Positions 6,881 to 14,543 of a stretch of 64,000 nt of DNA are shown one piece after another. The translations under genes were made by a program, and so were the position numbers. The notes beneath the pieces are model-generated. The model was not told the origin of the DNA. It worked only from the letters and a program-made list of their open reading frames with translations, and searched no databases. The stretch covers positions 124,001-188,000 of the forward strand of contig JABARV010000002.1 of the NCBI GenBank assembly GCA_019186965.1. The letters run 5' to 3'. Source of the stretch: Turneriella sp. (GTDB lineage Bacteria > Spirochaetota > Leptospiria > Turneriellales > Turneriellaceae). Within the stretch, counting starts at the first letter, position 1. Each line of letters opens with the position of its first letter.

Positions 6881-7957
6881 CTATGGAACTATTCCGTATA
6901 GTTTTACCGCCTCTTGCTTACCGCGTAAACGTGTTGTTTCAAGTTCTTTCAGGGTGCATTGGGGGTTACCCGCTATCCGTGTTGCTTCGTCGATAATAAT
7001 TGTATATGGTAGGGTTTTTGTAAGGTCTTGAATCCGCGCTGCTGTATTTACAGAGTCACCCATCACAGCGTACTTTATCATTCTTTCTGAGCCAATGTTG
7101 CCTGCAAAGATTCTTCCTGTAGCGATTCCGATGCCAAAGCCATATTCGACTTTATTTTGTTCTCTACGTTCCTTATTTATCTGTGCCATATATTTATGGA
7201 TTGCACAAGCAGTCCGCACAGCATTTCCAGCATCGTGTTCTTTGGGGATTGGGCACCCAAACGTCGCTAAAATACCGTCTCCTAAAAGTTCGTTGATGGA
7301 ACCACCGTTGTTGAAAATAATTTCCATTAACTTTCCAAAAAGTTTTGAAATTCTTTCTGCGTATGCTTGCGGACCAATTTTTTCGGCCATTGTTGTCGAG
7401 CCACGGATGTCAAAAAACATAAGCGACGCGGTAACAATTTGCCCGCCTAATTCGGTTGAAAATTCTTCGTTTAAAATTTTTTCAACTAAATCGCTGGAAA
7501 AATAGCGTTGAAGGCTTTTTTTATCTTTTTCTAATTTTGCATTCAGTTTTTGGATTTCTTTTCTATAGCTAACGCGTTCAAACGCTTGCTGAATTTTCAT
7601 TGAAACATCGGCAAAATTCAGTGGTTTAGGAAGAAAATCATCCGCGCCTGTAGACATACAAACAATACGGATTTCCGGAGAATCTTCTGCCGACATCATG
7701 AAGACAGGAACGGCTATGGGACCATCTGTATCGCGGATAAATTTTAAAATTTCCATTCCTGGATGGTCGGGTAGGTGTAAATCAATGAGAGCCATATCGA
7801 CTTCGTTTTTACTTAGCCAAGCCAATGCTTTCACCGCGCTATTTGCGGTAATGACTTCATAGCCCCAGTGCTGGATATAGGTTTCTAACGCTGTTAATTG
7901 GACGTCTTCGTCTTCAACGATAAGTATTTTTTGTTTGAGCATATTCGCGGTATCCAT
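6881..7957 (-). CDS. Response regulator with class III nucleotide cyclase domain
   Basis: A 358-residue cytoplasmic protein. REC domain: residues about 10-125, phospho-acceptor Asp59 (ALIDLHLPD) and Lys111 in FLPKPL. A short coiled linker (about 130-165) leads to a class III cyclase domain (about 170-358). Metal-binding Asp183 (FFDIRGST) and Asp227 (LLGDG) and the catalytic Asn304/Arg308 (SVNTAARI) are present, so it should be active. The base-selecting Lys position is Glu223 (INELLGDG) and the Asp/Thr position is Ala297 (KYAVMGD). Adenylate cyclases have Lys with Asp or Thr here; Glu is typical of guanylate cyclases. The product (cAMP or cGMP) is therefore open. It is the last gene of the minus-strand block that starts with nirK. 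Confidence 0.88.
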   Translation of the reverse strand: MDTANMLKQKILIVEDEDVQLTALETYIQHWGYEVITANSAVKALAWLSKNEVDMALIDLHLPDHPGMEILKFIRDTDGPIAVPVFMMSAEDSPEIRIVCMSTGADDFLPKPLNFADVSMKIQQAFERVSYRKEIQKLNAKLEKDKKSLQRYFSSDLVEKILNEEFSTELGGQIVTASLMFFDIRGSTTMAEKIGPQAYAERISKLFGKLMEIIFNNGGSINELLGDGILATFGCPIPKEHDAGNAVRTACAIHKYMAQINKERREQNKVEYGFGIGIATGRIFAGNIGSERMIKYAVMGDSVNTAARIQDLTKTLPYTIIIDEATRIAGNPQCTLKELETTRLRGKQEAVKLYGIVP

Positions 7958-7996: not shown

Positions 7997-8824
7997 TTAC
8001 AGCGTAGAAAGTTGTGCAAAAGGATGCGCCTCTATTCTTTTTTGTGCCTCAGGGGATGCATGCCGTATTAACACGTTCTGCTCTCCGCCTAAATCTTTAT
8101 AGCATTGTTGCGCAATGGTTTTTGCTGTATCTTTGGTAGAAATCCCCAAAAGAAGCGAAGCGCAAACGGCACCAATAAAAGTAGACTTTTCCAAAGGCGA
8201 TGTGAGAGACTCGTACGGGCTTGTAGCAGAAATTTCCATAAATTTTTGGAATTCGTCGGGCAGTTTCCATGTAGAAGCTGCCTTTTTTCCCAGTTCAATA
8301 TGCGTTATTCCATACGATTGTTTTTCCAGCTTTTGGAGATCCCATTTATTTTTTTCACACGCTTGTATCATGTCGCTATAGTGTCCCGCGTTTTGTAGCG
8401 CCATGATACTCATACCAATTTTATGGAGGAGCGCGGCCAAAAACGCTTCATCTGCTTCTTTACGCAGCGAAGTTTCCTGTGCGACCATTTGTGCGATGAG
8501 CGCTGCGTATATAGGGTAACGGCTTAGGTGTACCTTAAAAGTATCGCTTTTGTAAGTGGGCGCCATTGCCTTGGTGCTTAGATAAATAACGAGATTTTTT
8601 GTTGCCTTAATGCCTAAGACAGCGAGGGAATCGCGTAAAATTTTTACTTTTCCGGAGCGCCCGTAAAAAGCAGAATTTGCTACGCGTAGTAGCTCTGCAC
8701 TAATTGCCTTGTCGGGGAGCACTAATTTTTCTAAATCGCCAGCACCATTTTTTGGATTATTCGCATCGAATTGAATAACTTGCGCAACAATGGTCGGTAA
8801 CGGCGGAATCGCAAATGAATCCAT
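7997..8824 (-). CDS. HDOD domain signalling protein
   Basis: A 275-residue protein that is almost entirely an HDOD domain, a catalytically inactive relative of HD phosphodiesterases found in bacterial signalling. Recognisable parts are the opening IPPLPTIVAQVIQ, then LRVANSAFYG, and SLAVLGIKATKNLV. It has no attached output domain. ATG 8824 is preferred over GTG 8833; both lie inside an inverted repeat, and no ribosome binding site is evident. It sits 35 bases after a hemerythrin gene and 39 bases before the response-regulator cyclase, suggesting it works in the same pathway. Confidence 0.85.
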   Translation of the reverse strand: MDSFAIPPLPTIVAQVIQFDANNPKNGAGDLEKLVLPDKAISAELLRVANSAFYGRSGKVKILRDSLAVLGIKATKNLVIYLSTKAMAPTYKSDTFKVHLSRYPIYAALIAQMVAQETSLRKEADEAFLAALLHKIGMSIMALQNAGHYSDMIQACEKNKWDLQKLEKQSYGITHIELGKKAASTWKLPDEFQKFMEISATSPYESLTSPLEKSTFIGAVCASLLLGISTKDTAKTIAQQCYKDLGGEQNVLIRHASPEAQKRIEAHPFAQLSTL

Positions 8825-8850
8825 AAGATACACGCTTAATGTATCTTATG
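8822..8850. repeat. Perfect 11-bp inverted repeat at the HDOD start codon
   Basis: CATAAGATACA (8822-8832) and TGTATCTTATG (8840-8850) pair perfectly around a 7-base loop. It lies between the hemerythrin stop (8860) and the HDOD gene, and on the minus strand its distal arm ends in the HDOD ATG. No T-run follows, so it is not an ordinary terminator. It may be an operator or an mRNA hairpin that controls access to the start codon. Confidence 0.6.
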
Positions 8851-8859
8851 CAGTGCATA

Positions 8860-9276
8860 CTATTTTTTATTACTCGTCCTTTCTTTTGAAGAAAGTGCGG
8901 GAATATATTTCATGTCTTCGCGTAAAATGTGCAACTTGAGCCACGATTTCATGAACTCGACAAAGTCGGGAATTTCGAGTCCCCCCGCTTTAATTTCGGC
9001 AGCGTAGAGGAGTACTTGGTTTTTCAAAGTATCGTGTTTCTTTTTGTGTTCATCAAATAAACTAAAACCGACTTTCTGCATAATGGATTCTTCAAAACCA
9101 AAATGGTAAACGGTATAGTCGATAAGTTCTTCGATAATTTGTGAAATTTGTTTTTTACTTTCTTCTGCATTTGCTGCGCGAATTACACGGTTTACTAAAC
9201 CAAAAAGATAAATGTGTTGTTCATCAATTTCTTTGATACCCGTCGAGTAAGAATCACTCCACTCAAATTCGCTCAT
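8860..9276 (-). CDS. Bacteriohemerythrin (first copy)
   Basis: A 138-residue non-haem di-iron protein that binds O2 and in some bacteria NO. All seven expected ligands are present: His21 (IDEQH), His58 and Glu62 (YHFGFEE), His77 and His81 (HKKKH), His116 and Asp121 (HILRED). It is a stand-alone domain with no signal peptide, so cytoplasmic. It starts 14 bases after nnrS on the same strand and is very probably co-transcribed with it, which suggests a role in O2 or NO handling during nitrite respiration. The second copy at 10549-10968 has its ligands at exactly the same positions. Confidence 0.93.
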   Translation of the reverse strand: MSEFEWSDSYSTGIKEIDEQHIYLFGLVNRVIRAANAEESKKQISQIIEELIDYTVYHFGFEESIMQKVGFSLFDEHKKKHDTLKNQVLLYAAEIKAGGLEIPDFVEFMKSWLKLHILREDMKYIPALSSKERTSNKK

Positions 9277-9290
9277 GCAGCTTCACTTTG

Positions 9291-10478
9291 CTACCCAGGC
9301 CTTCCGTCGATGCGCGGACGTACAAGCATCGGTGTGTACTTGACTAGGTAGAGTACAAAAGTAATAAGCCATAGTGAGCCGGCAACTAAGTAACCTGTAT
9401 TTGCGTAGGTTATGCCGATAAGAGGGATGATAACGCGGGCAAGGAGCGCCAAGTTGAGCGTCAAGTATGCAAAGCTAATCGAAGGAGAAGCTTTAATTGG
9501 CCTTCCTGTGTGTCCCAGCGCCACGCGGGTAATCATCCCAAAAATAAACACACCTGCTGCGCCAATACCAAAAACATGCCATGCTGCACTGCGGTATGCG
9601 GCGTCGGTTGGAAGCGAAGCGAAAACCTTTGATAAATATAACGGCATAAAAAAGAAGCCAATAAATAACCAAAAATACCCTGCAAAAAGAATAACTAAGA
9701 TGGGGAATTTAAAAGAAGCAAAAGGGCGCCAGTTATACCAACGCACCGCGTGTAGAACTCCGTAAATAAAAAAAATACCCGCAGCAATGTACGACGCAAT
9801 ATTATGGAATTCAGAGGCAATAAACGCAACAATAGTAATTTGCGTTGCGGGCCAAATCCATTTTTCAAGGCCGGGACGAATTTTGGGCTTGTCGCCCGCC
9901 ATAACGACTCCTGCAAAAAAAGGTAAAATACGGCCTGCAATTATGGCGACTAAAAGTACCGTCATTAAAAGCCCTGTGCGCACCGCATGAAAATAATACT
10001 CTTGCCAAGTACCTACGTAGTGCGTTGCGATAGCCGCGAAAAGGGCTAATTGCATAAGTGTAATGAGATAGAAAGGAGGCCTATTATTTTTTTGTTTAAG
10101 GAGGGGGAGTAAACGATAAATTGCAAAAATACTCGCAGCTGCATCAAAGCCGAAAGATATAAGTGCGTAAGGCTCTGGTAAGTAGAAAGCGAAACGTCCT
10201 AAGAGCCACAGGATAAAAAGTATAAACGCTGATTTTCCGCCTAAAAGAAACTTGCCTGTCCAGTGCTGGCCAGCAGTAAATACAAACCCAAAAATAGCGG
10301 CACGGACAAAACCAAACACCATCTCGTAGGAGTGCCAGTCGGTTCCGCCCAACTGTGTTGTGACAACATGCACGCCGTGGAGCTTTATAAGCCACATCGT
10401 AATAATTGCAACTGCTTCCAGTGCGCTCATAAGAAAGAAAACGCGAAACGCGGTCGTAAATACAGGTAAATTGTACAT
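9291..10478 (-). CDS. nnrS: NnrS family membrane protein
   Basis: A 395-residue polytopic inner-membrane protein with about 12 hydrophobic segments. NnrS is a haem- and copper-containing protein linked to protection from nitrosative stress in denitrifiers. The family start (LPVFTTAFRVFFLMSA), the RILPFFAG segment and the C-terminal RVALGHTGRP motif are present. It lies in the nirK block. An FNR/Dnr-like box (10513-10526) is 35 bases before ATG 10478 and a TATAAT lies between them (10496-10501, minus strand), which would leave a very short leader; no ribosome binding site is visible. Confidence 0.92.
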   Translation of the reverse strand: MYNLPVFTTAFRVFFLMSALEAVAIITMWLIKLHGVHVVTTQLGGTDWHSYEMVFGFVRAAIFGFVFTAGQHWTGKFLLGGKSAFILFILWLLGRFAFYLPEPYALISFGFDAAASIFAIYRLLPLLKQKNNRPPFYLITLMQLALFAAIATHYVGTWQEYYFHAVRTGLLMTVLLVAIIAGRILPFFAGVVMAGDKPKIRPGLEKWIWPATQITIVAFIASEFHNIASYIAAGIFFIYGVLHAVRWYNWRPFASFKFPILVILFAGYFWLFIGFFFMPLYLSKVFASLPTDAAYRSAAWHVFGIGAAGVFIFGMITRVALGHTGRPIKASPSISFAYLTLNLALLARVIIPLIGITYANTGYLVAGSLWLITFVLYLVKYTPMLVRPRIDGRPG

Positions 10479-10512: not shown

Positions 10513-10526
10513 TTGACGTAAATCAA
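10513..10526. promoter_or_regulatory. FNR/Dnr-type box upstream of nnrS
   Basis: TTGACGTAAATCAA is a one-base variant of the TTGAT-N4-ATCAA consensus used by FNR, Dnr and NnrR regulators. It is 35 bases upstream of the nnrS start codon, in the 70-base gap after the second hemerythrin gene, and closely resembles the box upstream of nirK. The Dnr-type gene at 13926 is the obvious candidate to bind it. Confidence 0.75.
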
Positions 10527-10548: not shown

Positions 10549-10968
10549 TTATAAGGGGCCTGTAGGGGGCTCAGAAAGTTTTGCGACAGCAGGGATAAAC
10601 CGCATATCTTCCATAATAATGTGTTCGGTAAGCCAGCTTTCCATAAACTCGACGAGGTCTTGCCGATTGAGTACACCCTGTTTCAATTGCTGCGTTAGTA
10701 AGTCGAGGCGTGTCCGCATCAATTCGTGCATTTGTTTGTGTTCTTCGTAGTGCTCGTAGTCTGCTTTTTTCAAAATAGCTTCTTCGTAAGCAAAGTGCGT
10801 ATCGACATACCTGTGGAGTTCTGCAATTGTGTCGTCGATAATTTGTGTAGCATCGGGCATTCCCATGTGCTGGAACAAGCGATTGGCAAGCTCGAAAAGG
10901 TATGCATGCTGTTGGTCAATTTTGGGCACGCCAACACTATATTCAATAGTCCATTCTAATCGTGTCAT
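10549..10968 (-). CDS. Bacteriohemerythrin (second copy)
   Basis: A 139-residue stand-alone hemerythrin, diverged from the copy at 8860-9276 but with the full ligand set at the same numbers: His21, His58, Glu62, His77, His81, His116 and Asp121. It follows the SCO gene after 34 bases and precedes nnrS, so it is part of the same nitrite/NO gene group. An O2- or NO-binding role is likely from the family and the context; the sequence does not distinguish between them. Confidence 0.93.
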   Translation of the reverse strand: MTRLEWTIEYSVGVPKIDQQHAYLFELANRLFQHMGMPDATQIIDDTIAELHRYVDTHFAYEEAILKKADYEHYEEHKQMHELMRTRLDLLTQQLKQGVLNRQDLVEFMESWLTEHIIMEDMRFIPAVAKLSEPPTGPL

Positions 10969-11002: not shown

Positions 11003-11590
11003 CTAAGGACGTATTTTTTCACGAAACGCCGCTATATCCATGCTTAAACCTGTGTGCTGTGCAATAATTTCTCCTGTTGGGGAAAGTAAAGTAAAAATCG
11101 ACGAATGCGAATATTCCCCATCGTCCAGCTTTTTGTAATTTACCCCAAGCGCGGCGGCAATTTCACGAACAGTATTTTCTTCTCCAGTAAGTAGTGTAAA
11201 CGCATCGGATAATTTCATTTTGTTTTTAAATTTTGTTAAGTTAGCTGGGTTGTCTCTTTGTGGATCAAACGAAATAAGCGCAAAGCGGGTATTCTTGCGT
11301 TGTGCATCGCTGAGCCCTTTTTCTAAACGAGACATTTCTGCCGCGATGCGGGGGCAAATTGCCGTACACGTTGCATAGAACATCGAAAGCACGATGTACT
11401 TGCCCTCCATTTGGTGTAGCATCATTTTTTTCCCGTCTTGGTCGGTAAGCATGTCGTGGAACTCGTAAAGCGACGCACCGGATGCTTTGCCTGCGTCCAT
11501 TTTATGGTGCGCGTGTGGATCTTTTTCTTTGCACGAAAATAATACTCCTAAAAATAAAAATCCAAACGCCAAATTTTTTACTGTTTTCAT
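11003..11590 (-). CDS. SCO1/SenC/PrrC family lipoprotein
   Basis: A 195-residue thioredoxin-fold protein that handles copper or thiol redox on the outside of the inner membrane. The copper-binding CxxxC is Cys75/Cys79 (FYATCTAICPRI) and the third ligand is His162 (GEYSHSS). A lipobox ends at Cys20 (FLFLGVLFSC), so it is probably a lipoprotein; a His-rich HAHHK follows. ATG 11590 is supported by AGGAG just upstream, and its ATGA overlaps the nirV stop. Placed after nirK and nirV, it may help assemble the copper centres of NirK; that role is inferred. Confidence 0.9.
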   Translation of the reverse strand: MKTVKNLAFGFLFLGVLFSCKEKDPHAHHKMDAGKASGASLYEFHDMLTDQDGKKMMLHQMEGKYIVLSMFYATCTAICPRIAAEMSRLEKGLSDAQRKNTRFALISFDPQRDNPANLTKFKNKMKLSDAFTLLTGEENTVREIAAALGVNYKKLDDGEYSHSSIFTLLSPTGEIIAQHTGLSMDIAAFREKIRP

Positions 11591-12333
11591 TTTATCTCCT
11601 TTGCACAACGAAATCCTAAATTAAGTCCAGTGTAATTACCTTTAAGCGAGCTACGCATTCCATAACGCATGTACGCAGTATAGTTTCGTAAATCGCTTCC
11701 CGTGAGGGCAGTTGCTCCACAAAACATATTCGAGTTGGTGTCAGTGTCGGCGCGCGAATCGCCGGTTACCGTCGACGAATTGAAATCTTCGACCCATTCC
11801 CAAATAAGCCCATGCAAATCGTAAACTCCTTGCGGGCTTTTAAGGCCAGTGCCCAAGCGGGGTACAGGCATAGTGTCGTTGGGTTGTGCAAACCATTTTA
11901 AGATACGTTCGTTGTTTGCGGGCAGCGCGTCCCATTTATTGTACGTGGCGACGTATTCCCATTCGTTGAGTGTCGGCAAACGTTTACCCTTAGCGCGGCA
12001 ATACGCACGCGCCGCGTACCACGAAACTTGTGTCATAGCAACACCTTGCAAGGGTGGATTTAATGCAACCCCTTGGAGGTATCCTTTGTCGGCACGGATA
12101 CGCGAAATTTTTTCTTTTTGCCAAGCAGGATTTTTCTCTAAAAAAGCGGCAAAATCCGCCGTCGAAACCGGATATTTATCAATCTGGAATCGGCGTATTT
12201 TGGCGTTCTTCTGATCTTTCGCTAAATCGAAAGGGCGAAAACTGCCTGAAGGTATTGTTACCATATCCTCAGCAAAAAGTGGGACGGCAAAAAATGCCGC
12301 CACCACTATAGTCGGAAGTGCAATCCTGCGCAT
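11587..12333 (-). CDS. nirV: NirV-like formylglycine-generating-enzyme family protein
   Basis: A 248-residue protein of the FGE-sulfatase (SUMF1-like) fold. Seen: VTIPSGSFRPF, VSWYAARAYCRAKGKRLPT (split here as VSWYAARAYCRAKG and KRLPTLNEWEY), GVYDLHGLIWEWVEDF and the ending GLNLGFRCAKE. This matches NirV, the FGE-like protein typically encoded beside nirK; its biochemical role is not settled. ATG 12333 gives a clean signal peptide (MRRIALPTIVVAAFFAVPLFA), while a longer reading would overlap nirK by 77 bases. The start codon lies inside a perfect hairpin (12321-12349). It overlaps the SCO gene by four bases. Confidence 0.85.
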   Translation of the reverse strand: MRRIALPTIVVAAFFAVPLFAEDMVTIPSGSFRPFDLAKDQKNAKIRRFQIDKYPVSTADFAAFLEKNPAWQKEKISRIRADKGYLQGVALNPPLQGVAMTQVSWYAARAYCRAKGKRLPTLNEWEYVATYNKWDALPANNERILKWFAQPNDTMPVPRLGTGLKSPQGVYDLHGLIWEWVEDFNSSTVTGDSRADTDTNSNMFCGATALTGSDLRNYTAYMRYGMRSSLKGNYTGLNLGFRCAKEIK

Positions 12334-12349
12334 ATAATGCGCAGGATTG
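12321..12349. repeat. Perfect 13-bp inverted repeat over the nirV start codon
   Basis: CAATCCTGCGCAT (12321-12333) and ATGCGCAGGATTG (12337-12349) pair perfectly around a 3-base loop (ATA). On the minus strand the nirV ATG is the first codon of the 3' arm. It lies in the nirK-nirV gap and has no T-run after it. It may be an mRNA hairpin that protects the nirK transcript end or limits nirV translation, or an operator. Confidence 0.7.
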
Positions 12350-12361
12350 TTAAAGATTTTC

Positions 12362-13756
12362 TTAATGGCCACCACGCTGTGCAGCGACTTCAGCGGAAGT
12401 AATATCACCACCTGAGTTACCCCATGAATTGAGTACATAGGTCAACACGCTGGCAATGTCGTCGTTCGACAAACCGAGTGCAGGCATGATGCTATCGTAT
12501 TTTTCTTTATTTACCGTTACAGGACCGGATAAACCGTTCATGACTACATGAATCGCCCGTTTTTTATCTGCGTTCAAGAAGTCAGACTTTGCAAGCGGTG
12601 GGAAAGCTTTTGGCACACCCTGCCCTTGGCTCATGTGGCAAGCGGCGCAGGTGGTGTCATAAATGCGTTTACCCACAACCAAACGTTCTTCTTTGTTTTT
12701 GGGACCTGGAGAAGGTACTGTTTCAGAGGGAATTGTTTGCGTCGCGCCCCCTTCTGGGAGGTACACTGTATCGGACTGTTTGCCCGAGTAAATGCTGGGC
12801 ACTGCGTCGCCTTCGGCTTTAATTAAACCCAACGCGCCTTTGTTGAACGTACGGAAAATCGAGTGGTCGACGATGACGTGGTCGCCCGGGACTTCCATTT
12901 TGAATTCAACAATCGCCGAACCACCCGCAGGGATGAGTGTAGTTTGTACGTTCTTTTGGTTACGTTCTGCGCCGCCTTCAGTGTATACCGCGTCGAAAAT
13001 TTCACCAATGACGTGGAACGAGGAAACGAGGTTTGGACCACCGTTACCCACGAACATACGCACTTTGTCGCCCACTTTTGCCTTGAGTGTTTTTTCTTTT
13101 GTCATTGAACCAACGGAACCGTTAAAAACAACGTATTCAGGTTTTTCGTCGAGCGCTTTATCCATATCAAAACCTTGGAGCCCGGCTTGGCCGTGTTTAC
13201 CTTTAGTATAGAATTCTGATTGCATAATGTAAAATTCTTTATCCACCTTGGGTAATCCACCTTTGGGTTCAACTAAAATTAAACCGTACATACCGTTGGC
13301 GATGTGCATACCTACGGGAGCAGTCGCGCAGTGGTAAACATAAAGCCCTGAGTTGAGTGCTTTGAACGAAAATTGCGAGCTGTGGCCGGGAGTTGTAAGC
13401 GAAGATGCTGCTCCACCGCCGGGGCCTGTAACCGCGTGCAAGTCAATGTTATGCGGCATTTTACTTGTAGGATGGTTTGAGAGATGAAACTCAACATCAT
13501 CCCCTTCGCGGATACGGATCATTGGGCCTGGAACGGTACCACCAAATGTCCAAAAGGTGTACTCGACCCCATCAGCAAGACGCCCTTTCAATTCTTTTGT
13601 CTCAAGGTTAATAATCACCTTGGCGTTACCGCTACGGTTCAATTGTGGCGGCACATTGGGGGCATACGCCAAAACAGCCTTTTCTACTTTCTTTGAGCAA
13701 CCCACCGCCAAGAAGGCAAGCGCGGAACTCATCCAGAACACATACTTGAGTTTCAT
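12362..13756 (-). CDS. nirK: Copper nitrite reductase NirK with C-terminal cytochrome c domain
   Basis: A 464-residue lipoprotein reducing nitrite to NO in the periplasm. Lipobox LAVGC puts the lipid on Cys20. Type 1 copper ligands: His102, Cys143, His151, Met156; type 2: His107, His142, His298; catalytic pair Asp105 and His248. All are present. The shortened loop CATAPVGMH lacks the Trp of class I enzymes. After a linker (about 330-355) a c-type cytochrome domain follows, with CAACH (370-374) and a probable axial Met in DSIMPAL. Such fusions carry their own electron donor, as in Ralstonia pickettii NirK. GGAGA precedes ATG 13756. An FNR/Dnr-like box lies 89 bases upstream. Confidence 0.96.
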
Positions 13757-13844: not shown

Positions 13845-13858
13845 TTGACCTATATCAA
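13845..13858. promoter_or_regulatory. FNR/Dnr-type box between nirK and the Crp/Fnr gene
   Basis: TTGACCTATATCAA differs from TTGAT-N4-ATCAA by one base in one half-site. It sits in the divergent region between nirK (start 13756) and the Crp/Fnr gene (start 13926), so it could control nirK, the regulator itself, or both. Confidence 0.78.
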
Positions 13859-13925
13859 TCGGTGATAATTATTTTTATTAGGCTTGTCGAGGACTGTCAA
13901 AGCTATAAATGCCCGTTGTGATGCC

Positions 13926-14543
13926 ATGACTTCGATCAAGTTTGACAAATTAAATCCAGAAAAAGCAGAGCTCTTACAAAATATCGCCCATTACCGACGC
14001 TATACCAAAACGGAGGTTGTATTCGAAGAGGGCGATGCGTATAAGGGACCGTTTATTGTCGCCGAAGGCCAATTTAAGGTTTTTGTAATGGGCGATGCTG
14101 GTAAAGAAAGTATTTTGCATGTTTTTCGGGAAGGTGAGCTTTTGGCGGGGGGGCCACTTTTCTTAGGTGGCTCATACCCAGCGTCATGCGCTGCGCTCAG
14201 CGATGGTTGCCTCATCGCGTTTGAGCACGACCGTCTCAAAAAAATTACCGAGGCCGACGAATCCATACACAACTACTTCCTCCAACGTACGCTTAAGCTA
14301 TTACCCCACCTAAAACAAAAAATCGAAAGTCTTGCGCTCAAAAGTGCAGAACAACGTATTATAAATTATTTTATTTCATTGGGCGCCGATAGAGATTCGG
14401 TTATACTCGATATACCCAAAAACCAAATCGCCGCGCTCTTGGATCTTACACCCGAGTCGGTAAGCCGTGTGTTAAACCAGCTTACGGCGCGCTCCATTCT
14501 TATCGTAGATGACAAAACATACCGGCTTGTCGGAAAACCATAA
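13926..14543 (+). CDS. Crp/Fnr family regulator, Dnr/NnrR type
   Basis: A 205-residue transcription factor with an N-terminal cyclic-nucleotide-binding-like beta-roll and a C-terminal helix-turn-helix. The recognition region reads IPKNQIAALLDLTPESVSRV, with the Glu-Ser-x-x-Arg pattern that reads TTGA half-sites. There is no N-terminal cysteine cluster, so it is not an iron-sulphur FNR; Dnr/NnrR proteins sense NO, often through haem. ATG 13926 is preferred over an upstream in-frame TTG (13884). It is divergent from nirK and two matching boxes lie at 13845 and 10513, so it is the likely regulator of the nitrite/NO genes. Confidence 0.87.
   Translation: MTSIKFDKLNPEKAELLQNIAHYRRYTKTEVVFEEGDAYKGPFIVAEGQFKVFVMGDAGKESILHVFREGELLAGGPLFLGGSYPASCAALSDGCLIAFEHDRLKKITEADESIHNYFLQRTLKLLPHLKQKIESLALKSAEQRIINYFISLGADRDSVILDIPKNQIAALLDLTPESVSRVLNQLTARSILIVDDKTYRLVGKP

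Follow-up and report, generated by a model that had tools for sequence, protein, structure and literature searches.

A response-regulator class III cyclase with guanylate-cyclase-type substrate-selecting residues in Turneriella sp. and related spirochaetes

Few bacterial guanylate cyclases have been characterised so far, and their roles are described as poorly understood (PMC4215837, PMC3770947). In guanylyl cyclases, the first substrate-selecting position is occupied by Glu and the second by Cys, Ser, Thr, His, Ala or Gly (PMC4215837). In a GTP-bound guanylate cyclase, the Glu provides the main specificity contact to N1/N2 and the second residue may give shape only; a Lys at the first position contacts adenine N1 (PMC7384201). 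For Cya2, the exchange E488K is reported to lead to cAMP, the Glu and Lys forms being specific each for its own nucleotide, and phytochrome-cyclase fusions use Cya2 E488K for adenylate cyclase activity (PMC5995499). Furthermore, the double exchange E497K/C566D turns a rhodopsin guanylyl cyclase into an adenylyl cyclase (PMC5967339). In Ma1120, the variant K101E/D157G shows an increased cGMP output yet still prefers ATP as judged by kcat/Km, and addition of the Tyr of Cya2 renders the enzyme indifferent between the nucleotides (PMC4215837). XC_0250 makes cGMP and not cAMP and has Ala at a substrate-specifying position; the linked XC_0249 binds cGMP (PMC3770947). From Leptospira, a cyclase making cAMP has been described (PMC9043183). 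A receiver-coupled guanylate cyclase of bacteria is not apparent among the titles listed in searches of open-access literature.

Here, we present a computational analysis of a cyclase gene of Turneriella sp. and its relatives. The gene lies in a stretch of 64,000 nt (assembly GCA_019186965.1, contig JABARV010000002.1, positions 124,001 to 188,000), called the window in the following; its features are listed in Table 1. An initial annotation had noticed a response-regulator cyclase at this site and had not named the strand. The gene exists, is encoded on the minus strand and starts with ATG. Its product, P0001, matches the Pfam models Response_reg (81.5 bits) and Guanylate_cyc (69.2 bits, cut-off 21.9), each clearly above the threshold of the model, and all six residues named in the annotation (D183, E223, D227, A297, N304, R308) are present in the residue table. 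The receiver shows the conserved Asp and Lys and the acidic pocket of response regulators. In the cyclase domain, the metal Asp residues D183/D227 and the pair N304/R308 sit on the columns of Cya2, as befits a class III nucleotidyl cyclase, and the metal and transition-state residues are complete in P0001 and in 16 of 16 orthologs. In some relatives, the receiver has lost the phosphoacceptor Asp, which is Asn in L040 and L041 and Glu in L044, so that phosphorylation appears dispensable in some family members. Structure predictions of P0001 from four sequences (window and L015-L017) were too poor for use: the full protein reached a mean pLDDT of 53.2 and the cyclase domain one of 59.2, with active-site stretches largely below 50.

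Table 1. Features of the cyclase locus, in window coordinates
Feature	Coordinates	Strand	Basis
Response-regulator class III cyclase, predicted guanylate cyclase (P0001, 358 aa)	6881..7957	-	ORF, Pfam, residue table
Cyclase domain, residues 177-350; D183, E223, D227, K295, A297, N304, R308	6908..7429	-	Pfam, PDB alignments
Receiver domain, residues 11-120; D16, D59, S89, K111 = canonical phosphoacceptor set	7598..7927	-	Pfam, alignment
HDOD-domain gene, directly upstream of cyclase, 39-base gap	7997..8833	-	Pfam, neighbourhoods
Hemerythrin-domain protein	8860..9276	-	Pfam
NnrS family protein	9291..10478	-	Pfam
FNR-type palindrome TTGACGTAAATCAA, 34 bases before NnrS start	10513..10526	-	Pattern count
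Hemerythrin-domain protein	10549..10968	-	Pfam
SCO1/SenC family protein	11003..11608	-	Pfam
FGE-sulfatase (SUMF1-like) domain protein	11587..12438	-	Pfam
Copper nitrite reductase (nirK) fused to C-terminal cytochrome c domain	12362..13756	-	NCBIfam, Pfam
FNR-type palindrome TTGACCTATATCAA, between nirK and Crp/Fnr gene	13845..13858	+	Pattern count
Crp/Fnr-family regulator, divergent from nirK	13884..14543	+	Pfam

Among PDB chains, Cya2 (2w01) is the best match for the cyclase domain of P0001 alone (E 4.7e-26). The phmmer alignment places 'SINELLGDGIL' of P0001 opposite 'TIDEFMGDGIL' of Cya2; 6fht, in which a bacteriophytochrome is joined to a cyclase domain that hardly differs from Cya2 in this alignment, has 'TIDKFMGDGIL', with Lys in the column of E223. 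The annotation had proposed an alignment with cyclases of known specificity, in which Glu223 might have fallen off the substrate-selecting column; it is found on that column, opposite the Glu of Cya2, and the Cya2 precedent named there proved correct (2w01 alignment; PMC5995499). A297 stands opposite the Gly of Cya2 'TKYGVVG', and the GTP-favouring Tyr of Cya2, which precedes the catalytic Arg, corresponds to Ala307. At the first selecting position, P0001 has Glu instead of Lys, and so do 16 of 16 orthologs. The second residue is likewise neither Asp nor Thr (A297, 16/16), a soft criterion because some published guanylate cyclases have Thr or Ser there (PMC4215837). Judged from the sequences, Ala at the second position alone is uninformative on the likely product, as Lys/Ala relatives show.

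The distribution of the enzyme was determined by searching P0001 against 61 genomes and against 48 genomes of its class. An ortholog with Glu and Ala at the selecting positions (Glu/Ala) occurs in 16 of the 48 class genomes, six of them from the source genus (window included) and the other ten from a different family of the class; one genus member, G002, yielded no P0001 ortholog in the search of class genomes. E223, K295 and A297 are identical in 16/16, down to about 50% identity. A tree was calculated from these 16 rows and 15 other response-regulator cyclases, namely 14 loci from other genomes (L035-L048) and the paralog L010 of the window genome, 12 of which are Lys/Thr and three Lys/Ala; duplicates (L015-L017, L019) and L018, with receiver-only similarity, had been removed before. 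The Glu/Ala rows form one clade on one side of a branch with a support of 100/99, nested inside the Lys/Ala and Lys/Thr rows. Nearest to it are the three Lys/Ala rows, with a support of 80/87 for full-length sequences and 99/92 for domains only; some placements in the tree are unsure owing to the long branches of L010, L042, L041 and L045. The simplest reading of the sequences would be an order from Lys/Thr over Lys/Ala to Glu/Ala. The Lys/Ala cyclases L035, L037 and L038 have Glu at residue 295 and appear as intermediates between the Lys/Thr and Glu/Ala types.

Residue 295, two positions before A297, was compared in 49 domains comprising the 16 Glu/Ala rows, six Glu/Gly cyclases from another family of the class, Cya2, the 15 response-regulator cyclases of the Lys type and another 11 cyclase domains from the source genome; L012, which duplicates P0001, and the short outlier L014 were not included. 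It is Lys in 23 of 23 rows with Glu at the first selecting position and basic in none of the 26 others, 21 of which have an acidic residue. Since Glu at this position was gained at least two times in the domain tree, the association with Lys295 rests on at least two events and not on 23. Within columns 165-355, the Glu/Ala clade and the 15 Lys-type members share no residue in only five: 199, 223, 295, 309 and, loosely, 342. In eukaryotic guanylate cyclases, the residue corresponding to 295 is typically Arg. In the rhodopsin cyclase, a six-fold variant with residues in 564-568 changed to QYDIW, made to lower dark activity, is described in PMC5967339; this stretch takes in the position corresponding to 295, two residues ahead of the second selecting one.

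Cyclases with Glu at the first position are rare in the surveyed genomes. Among the 14 cyclase domains of the source genome, this position is Lys in 12, Ala in one (L013) and Glu in P0001 only; L013 (G000:C2:190452-191075) combines Ala at the first with Thr at the second selecting position. A degenerate DNA pattern, which misses cyclases with different flanking residues and thus gives lower bounds, matched 28 times in its Glu form, in 27 of 247 phylum genomes, and in its Lys form matched 47 of the 48 class genomes. Sixteen of the 28 matches are P0001 orthologs by coordinates; the remaining 12, identified by translation and reading, are six Cya2-like Glu/Gly cyclases and six unrelated proteins. 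The six Glu/Gly cyclases (L108-L113, in G037, G022, G025, G019, G035 and G047) represent a further Glu-type cyclase, independent of the first, from another family of the class, with frames of 725-747 residues and Lys at the position of 295, and group with Cya2 at 100/100. From their sequences, they are likely guanylate cyclases as well.

Neighbourhoods of about 9 kb on either side, where contigs allow, were compared for 19 regions and the window. In all 20 regions (16 Glu/Ala, four Lys-type), the gene immediately upstream of the cyclase is an HDOD gene on the same strand, in L064 apparently in pieces, and the two genes thus constitute a conserved unit. Inspection of plus-strand frames by eye revealed none resembling HDOD upstream of the paralog L010. 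An EAL-domain-like gene is located near the pair in nine of the ten other-family regions (L054-L061 and L063; Pfam EAL on that of L054), hinting at a connection to c-di-GMP. In the window, a 12-pair inverted repeat (8822-8850) between the hemerythrin and HDOD genes extends over the HDOD start. Its RNA fold has -16.6 kcal/mol (z -2.2), 7 of 200 shuffles were equally stable, and it could allow the HDOD and cyclase genes to be expressed separately from the operon.

The annotation had described the cyclase as the end of a nitrite/NO gene block, and this setting is real in the window: eight codirectional genes with gaps of -77 to 70 bases run from nirK (NCBIfam Cu_nitrite_red, 365 bits vs cut-off 296.3) through the FGE-like, SCO, hemerythrin, NnrS, hemerythrin and HDOD genes to the cyclase. 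It holds for the genus only, however, as no NO genes adjoin the cyclase at any of the ten orthologs outside it. The block order of the window recurs with small differences in G001 and G006, G004 retains NnrS and the hemerythrins, and G005 retains the block with other genes between, one of them on the opposite strand; the contig of G003 stops at HDOD. NnrS is near the cyclase in five of the six Glu/Ala genus members; it was not found in G003 or G002. In the other family, nine of the ten Glu/Ala genomes carry NnrS, always elsewhere in the genome, and the link to NO is therefore local to the genus. The motif TTGA-N6-TCAA occurs six times in the window as a raw pattern count, two of these at the block, and similar FNR-type boxes were found near nirK or NnrS in L049, L051, L052 and L053. 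The palindromes and the divergent Crp/Fnr gene suggest Fnr-type control of the nitrite/NO operon. We rejected the reading as an NO-sensing cyclase of the H-NOX kind, as Pfam detects no H-NOX (HNOB) domain in P0001 and PF07700 has no match in the source genome (control match in one of 14 genomes).

Genes for possible receptors of the product were found in several congeners. A gene for a single-domain cNMP-binding protein lies directly downstream of the cyclase in four of the six genus members with the enzyme (G001, G003, G005, G006). It overlaps the cyclase stop by 4 bases in G003 and G005 and follows after a gap of 31 bases in G006; in these three, it encodes one cNMP-binding domain in 121-124 residues and is followed by a second, more divergent one (Pfam check of both of G006 and the second of G005). 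The contig of G001 ends inside the apparent copy. In the window genome (G000) and in G004, no cNMP-binding gene adjoins the cyclase, the best genome matches having 39% and 41% identity, respectively, and G002, which is devoid of the cyclase, has no close copy either. With 16 cNMP_binding matches in the window genome, other receptors are possible. In five of the ten other-family genomes, a divergent gene for a PrsW-type membrane protein with a C-terminal cNMP-binding domain adjoins HDOD (Pfam on that of L054). For one neighbour binding protein, the top four distinct sequences among the PDB matches are cGMP-dependent kinases (E 1.8e-14 and weaker), which weakly favours cGMP binding by this putative receptor. 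In cyclic-nucleotide-binding proteins, the usual hint at cGMP binding is a pocket Arg followed by Thr or Ser. This sign was dropped, as it is common in the other binding domains of the source genome and does not discriminate. The adjoining Crp/Fnr protein is an unlikely cGMP receptor: its pocket reads GGSYPAS where cyclic-nucleotide binders typically have Arg, and the phosphate-binding Arg motif is absent.

Taken together, P0001 is probably a phosphorylation-controlled guanylate cyclase. This reading draws on the Glu in the Cya2 column, the invariance of Glu and Ala, Lys295 in 23/23, the rarity of the Glu form (one of 14 domains), the adjoining binding genes and the published precedents. The view of Glu223 as a guanylate-cyclase-type residue, put forward in the annotation, has gained in strength through conservation in the whole clade, the charge swap at 295, its rarity in genome and phylum and the cyclic-nucleotide-binding neighbours. 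Counting against it would be the persistent ATP preference of Ma1120 K101E/D157G, Ala307 in place of the Cya2 Tyr and the lack of an adjoining receptor gene in the enzyme's own genome. In the proposed mechanism, a histidine kinase would phosphorylate D59 of the receiver, and dimerisation of the receivers via the linker would unite two cyclase domains. D183/D227 would then bind two metal ions and N304/R308 position the ribose and the transition state, with E223 bonding to guanine N1/N2, A297 providing space for the keto group of guanine and K295 replacing the acid found in the Lys223 relatives. The product cGMP would be read by cyclic-nucleotide-binding proteins, presumably those encoded directly downstream in four of six genus members, the window genome not being among them, and the HDOD protein would be the constant partner of the cyclase. 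In the genus, the HDOD-cyclase pair would end the nitrite/NO operon, probably driven by the Crp/Fnr-type regulator, so that nitrite/NO or oxygen conditions may be reflected in the amount of enzyme and not in its activity.

Several other readings have to be weighed against a guanylate cyclase. Ma1120 double and triple mutants with E/G or E/G/Y use both nucleotides (PMC4215837), and P0001 lacks the GTP-favouring Tyr of Cya2; a dual-specificity enzyme forming cGMP and cAMP in proportions that depend on nucleotide pools, metal or pH would agree with both. We regard it as unlikely, since Cya2 and E488K are each specific despite a one-residue change (PMC5995499), the Ma1120 variants are engineered, and the retention of E223, K295 and A297 in all 16 orthologs points to selection for a definite product. 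That strict conservation across the clade also speaks against an ordinary adenylate cyclase tolerating Glu223, a very improbable reading although the family's closest paralogs are of the Lys/Thr type and 12 of the 13 other cyclase domains of the source genome have the adenylate-cyclase Lys: Lys contacts adenine N1, and Glu should not do so likewise (PMC7384201).

Decay of parts does occur in the family, as the degenerate receivers (N59 in L040 and L041, E59 in L044) indicate, and could have left a catalytically silent protein with a cyclase fold of regulatory function only; with the metal and transition-state residues all in place in P0001 and its orthologs, we consider this extremely improbable. 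At the bottom of the PDB list stand the cytidylate cyclase entry 8jsf (E 0.14) and the bacterial cyclase entry 7r65 (E 0.0045), both of which we take to be Pycsar enzymes. A Pycsar-like pyrimidine-nucleotide cyclase is nevertheless scarcely credible, as these matches are marginal compared with Cya2 and no common defence-type partner gene is apparent in the compared neighbourhoods. For the guanylate cyclase reading, the result is a strong specificity prediction, made from sequence, for a new clade of a known kind of enzyme, with no new mechanism. The sequences show the anatomy, the selecting residues with their conservation and rarity, and the neighbourhoods; we infer GTP preference, control by phosphorylation, the receptor and the link to NO. 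A wider scenario is possible, if speculative: a new, phosphotransfer-controlled guanylate cyclase lineage, paired with HDOD and single-domain cGMP receptors, would have arisen inside an adenylate cyclase family through Lys/Thr, Lys/Ala and Glu/Ala steps and an acid-to-Lys exchange at 295, and would have been captured in one genus by a nitrite/NO operon, giving an NO-linked cGMP pathway that works without a haem sensor of the H-NOX kind.

The prediction would extend to spirochaetes a mode of signalling, by cGMP, that has seldom been documented in bacteria. Congeners encode a candidate receptor beside the enzyme, and in one genus the predicted guanylate cyclase is placed inside a nitrite-reduction operon. 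In addition, extant Lys/Thr, Lys/Ala and Glu/Ala relatives open the order of the change in substrate preference and the role of residue 295 to direct test. Compared with known systems, P0001 resembles Cya2, a class III guanylyl cyclase of Synechocystis, in the Glu at the first and a small residue at the second selecting position, the Lys two positions before the latter, and the metal and Asn/Arg residues. Cya2 differs in its Gly, where P0001 has Ala, and in its Tyr, and the match is limited to the cyclase domain. In the tree, P0001 groups with response-regulator cyclases and not with the Cya2 subfamily; as the two stand in separate clades, their Glu residues go back to independent gains within the tree sampled. 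XC_0250 of Xanthomonas campestris shares with the P0001 clade the Ala at the second position and a linked partner gene with a cNMP-binding domain, but is described as having Leu157/Ala161 instead of the Asn/Arg pair and TPR repeats instead of a receiver, and its partner XC_0249 has a GGDEF domain (PMC3770947). In gcyB-gcyC-cgrA of Rhodospirillum centenum, genes for guanylyl cyclase subunits adjoin that of a cNMP-binding regulator, an arrangement comparable to that in the congeners; CgrA is reported as a DNA-binding CRP homolog (PMC4681086), whereas the congeners have bare cNMP-binding domains. The Lys/Thr and Lys/Ala response-regulator cyclases of the same spirochaete class (L035-L048, L010) have the architecture of P0001, full-length homology at 37-48% identity and, in the four Lys-type neighbourhoods examined (L064-L067), HDOD upstream. 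They differ from it in combining Lys223 with Glu295, as in adenylate cyclases.
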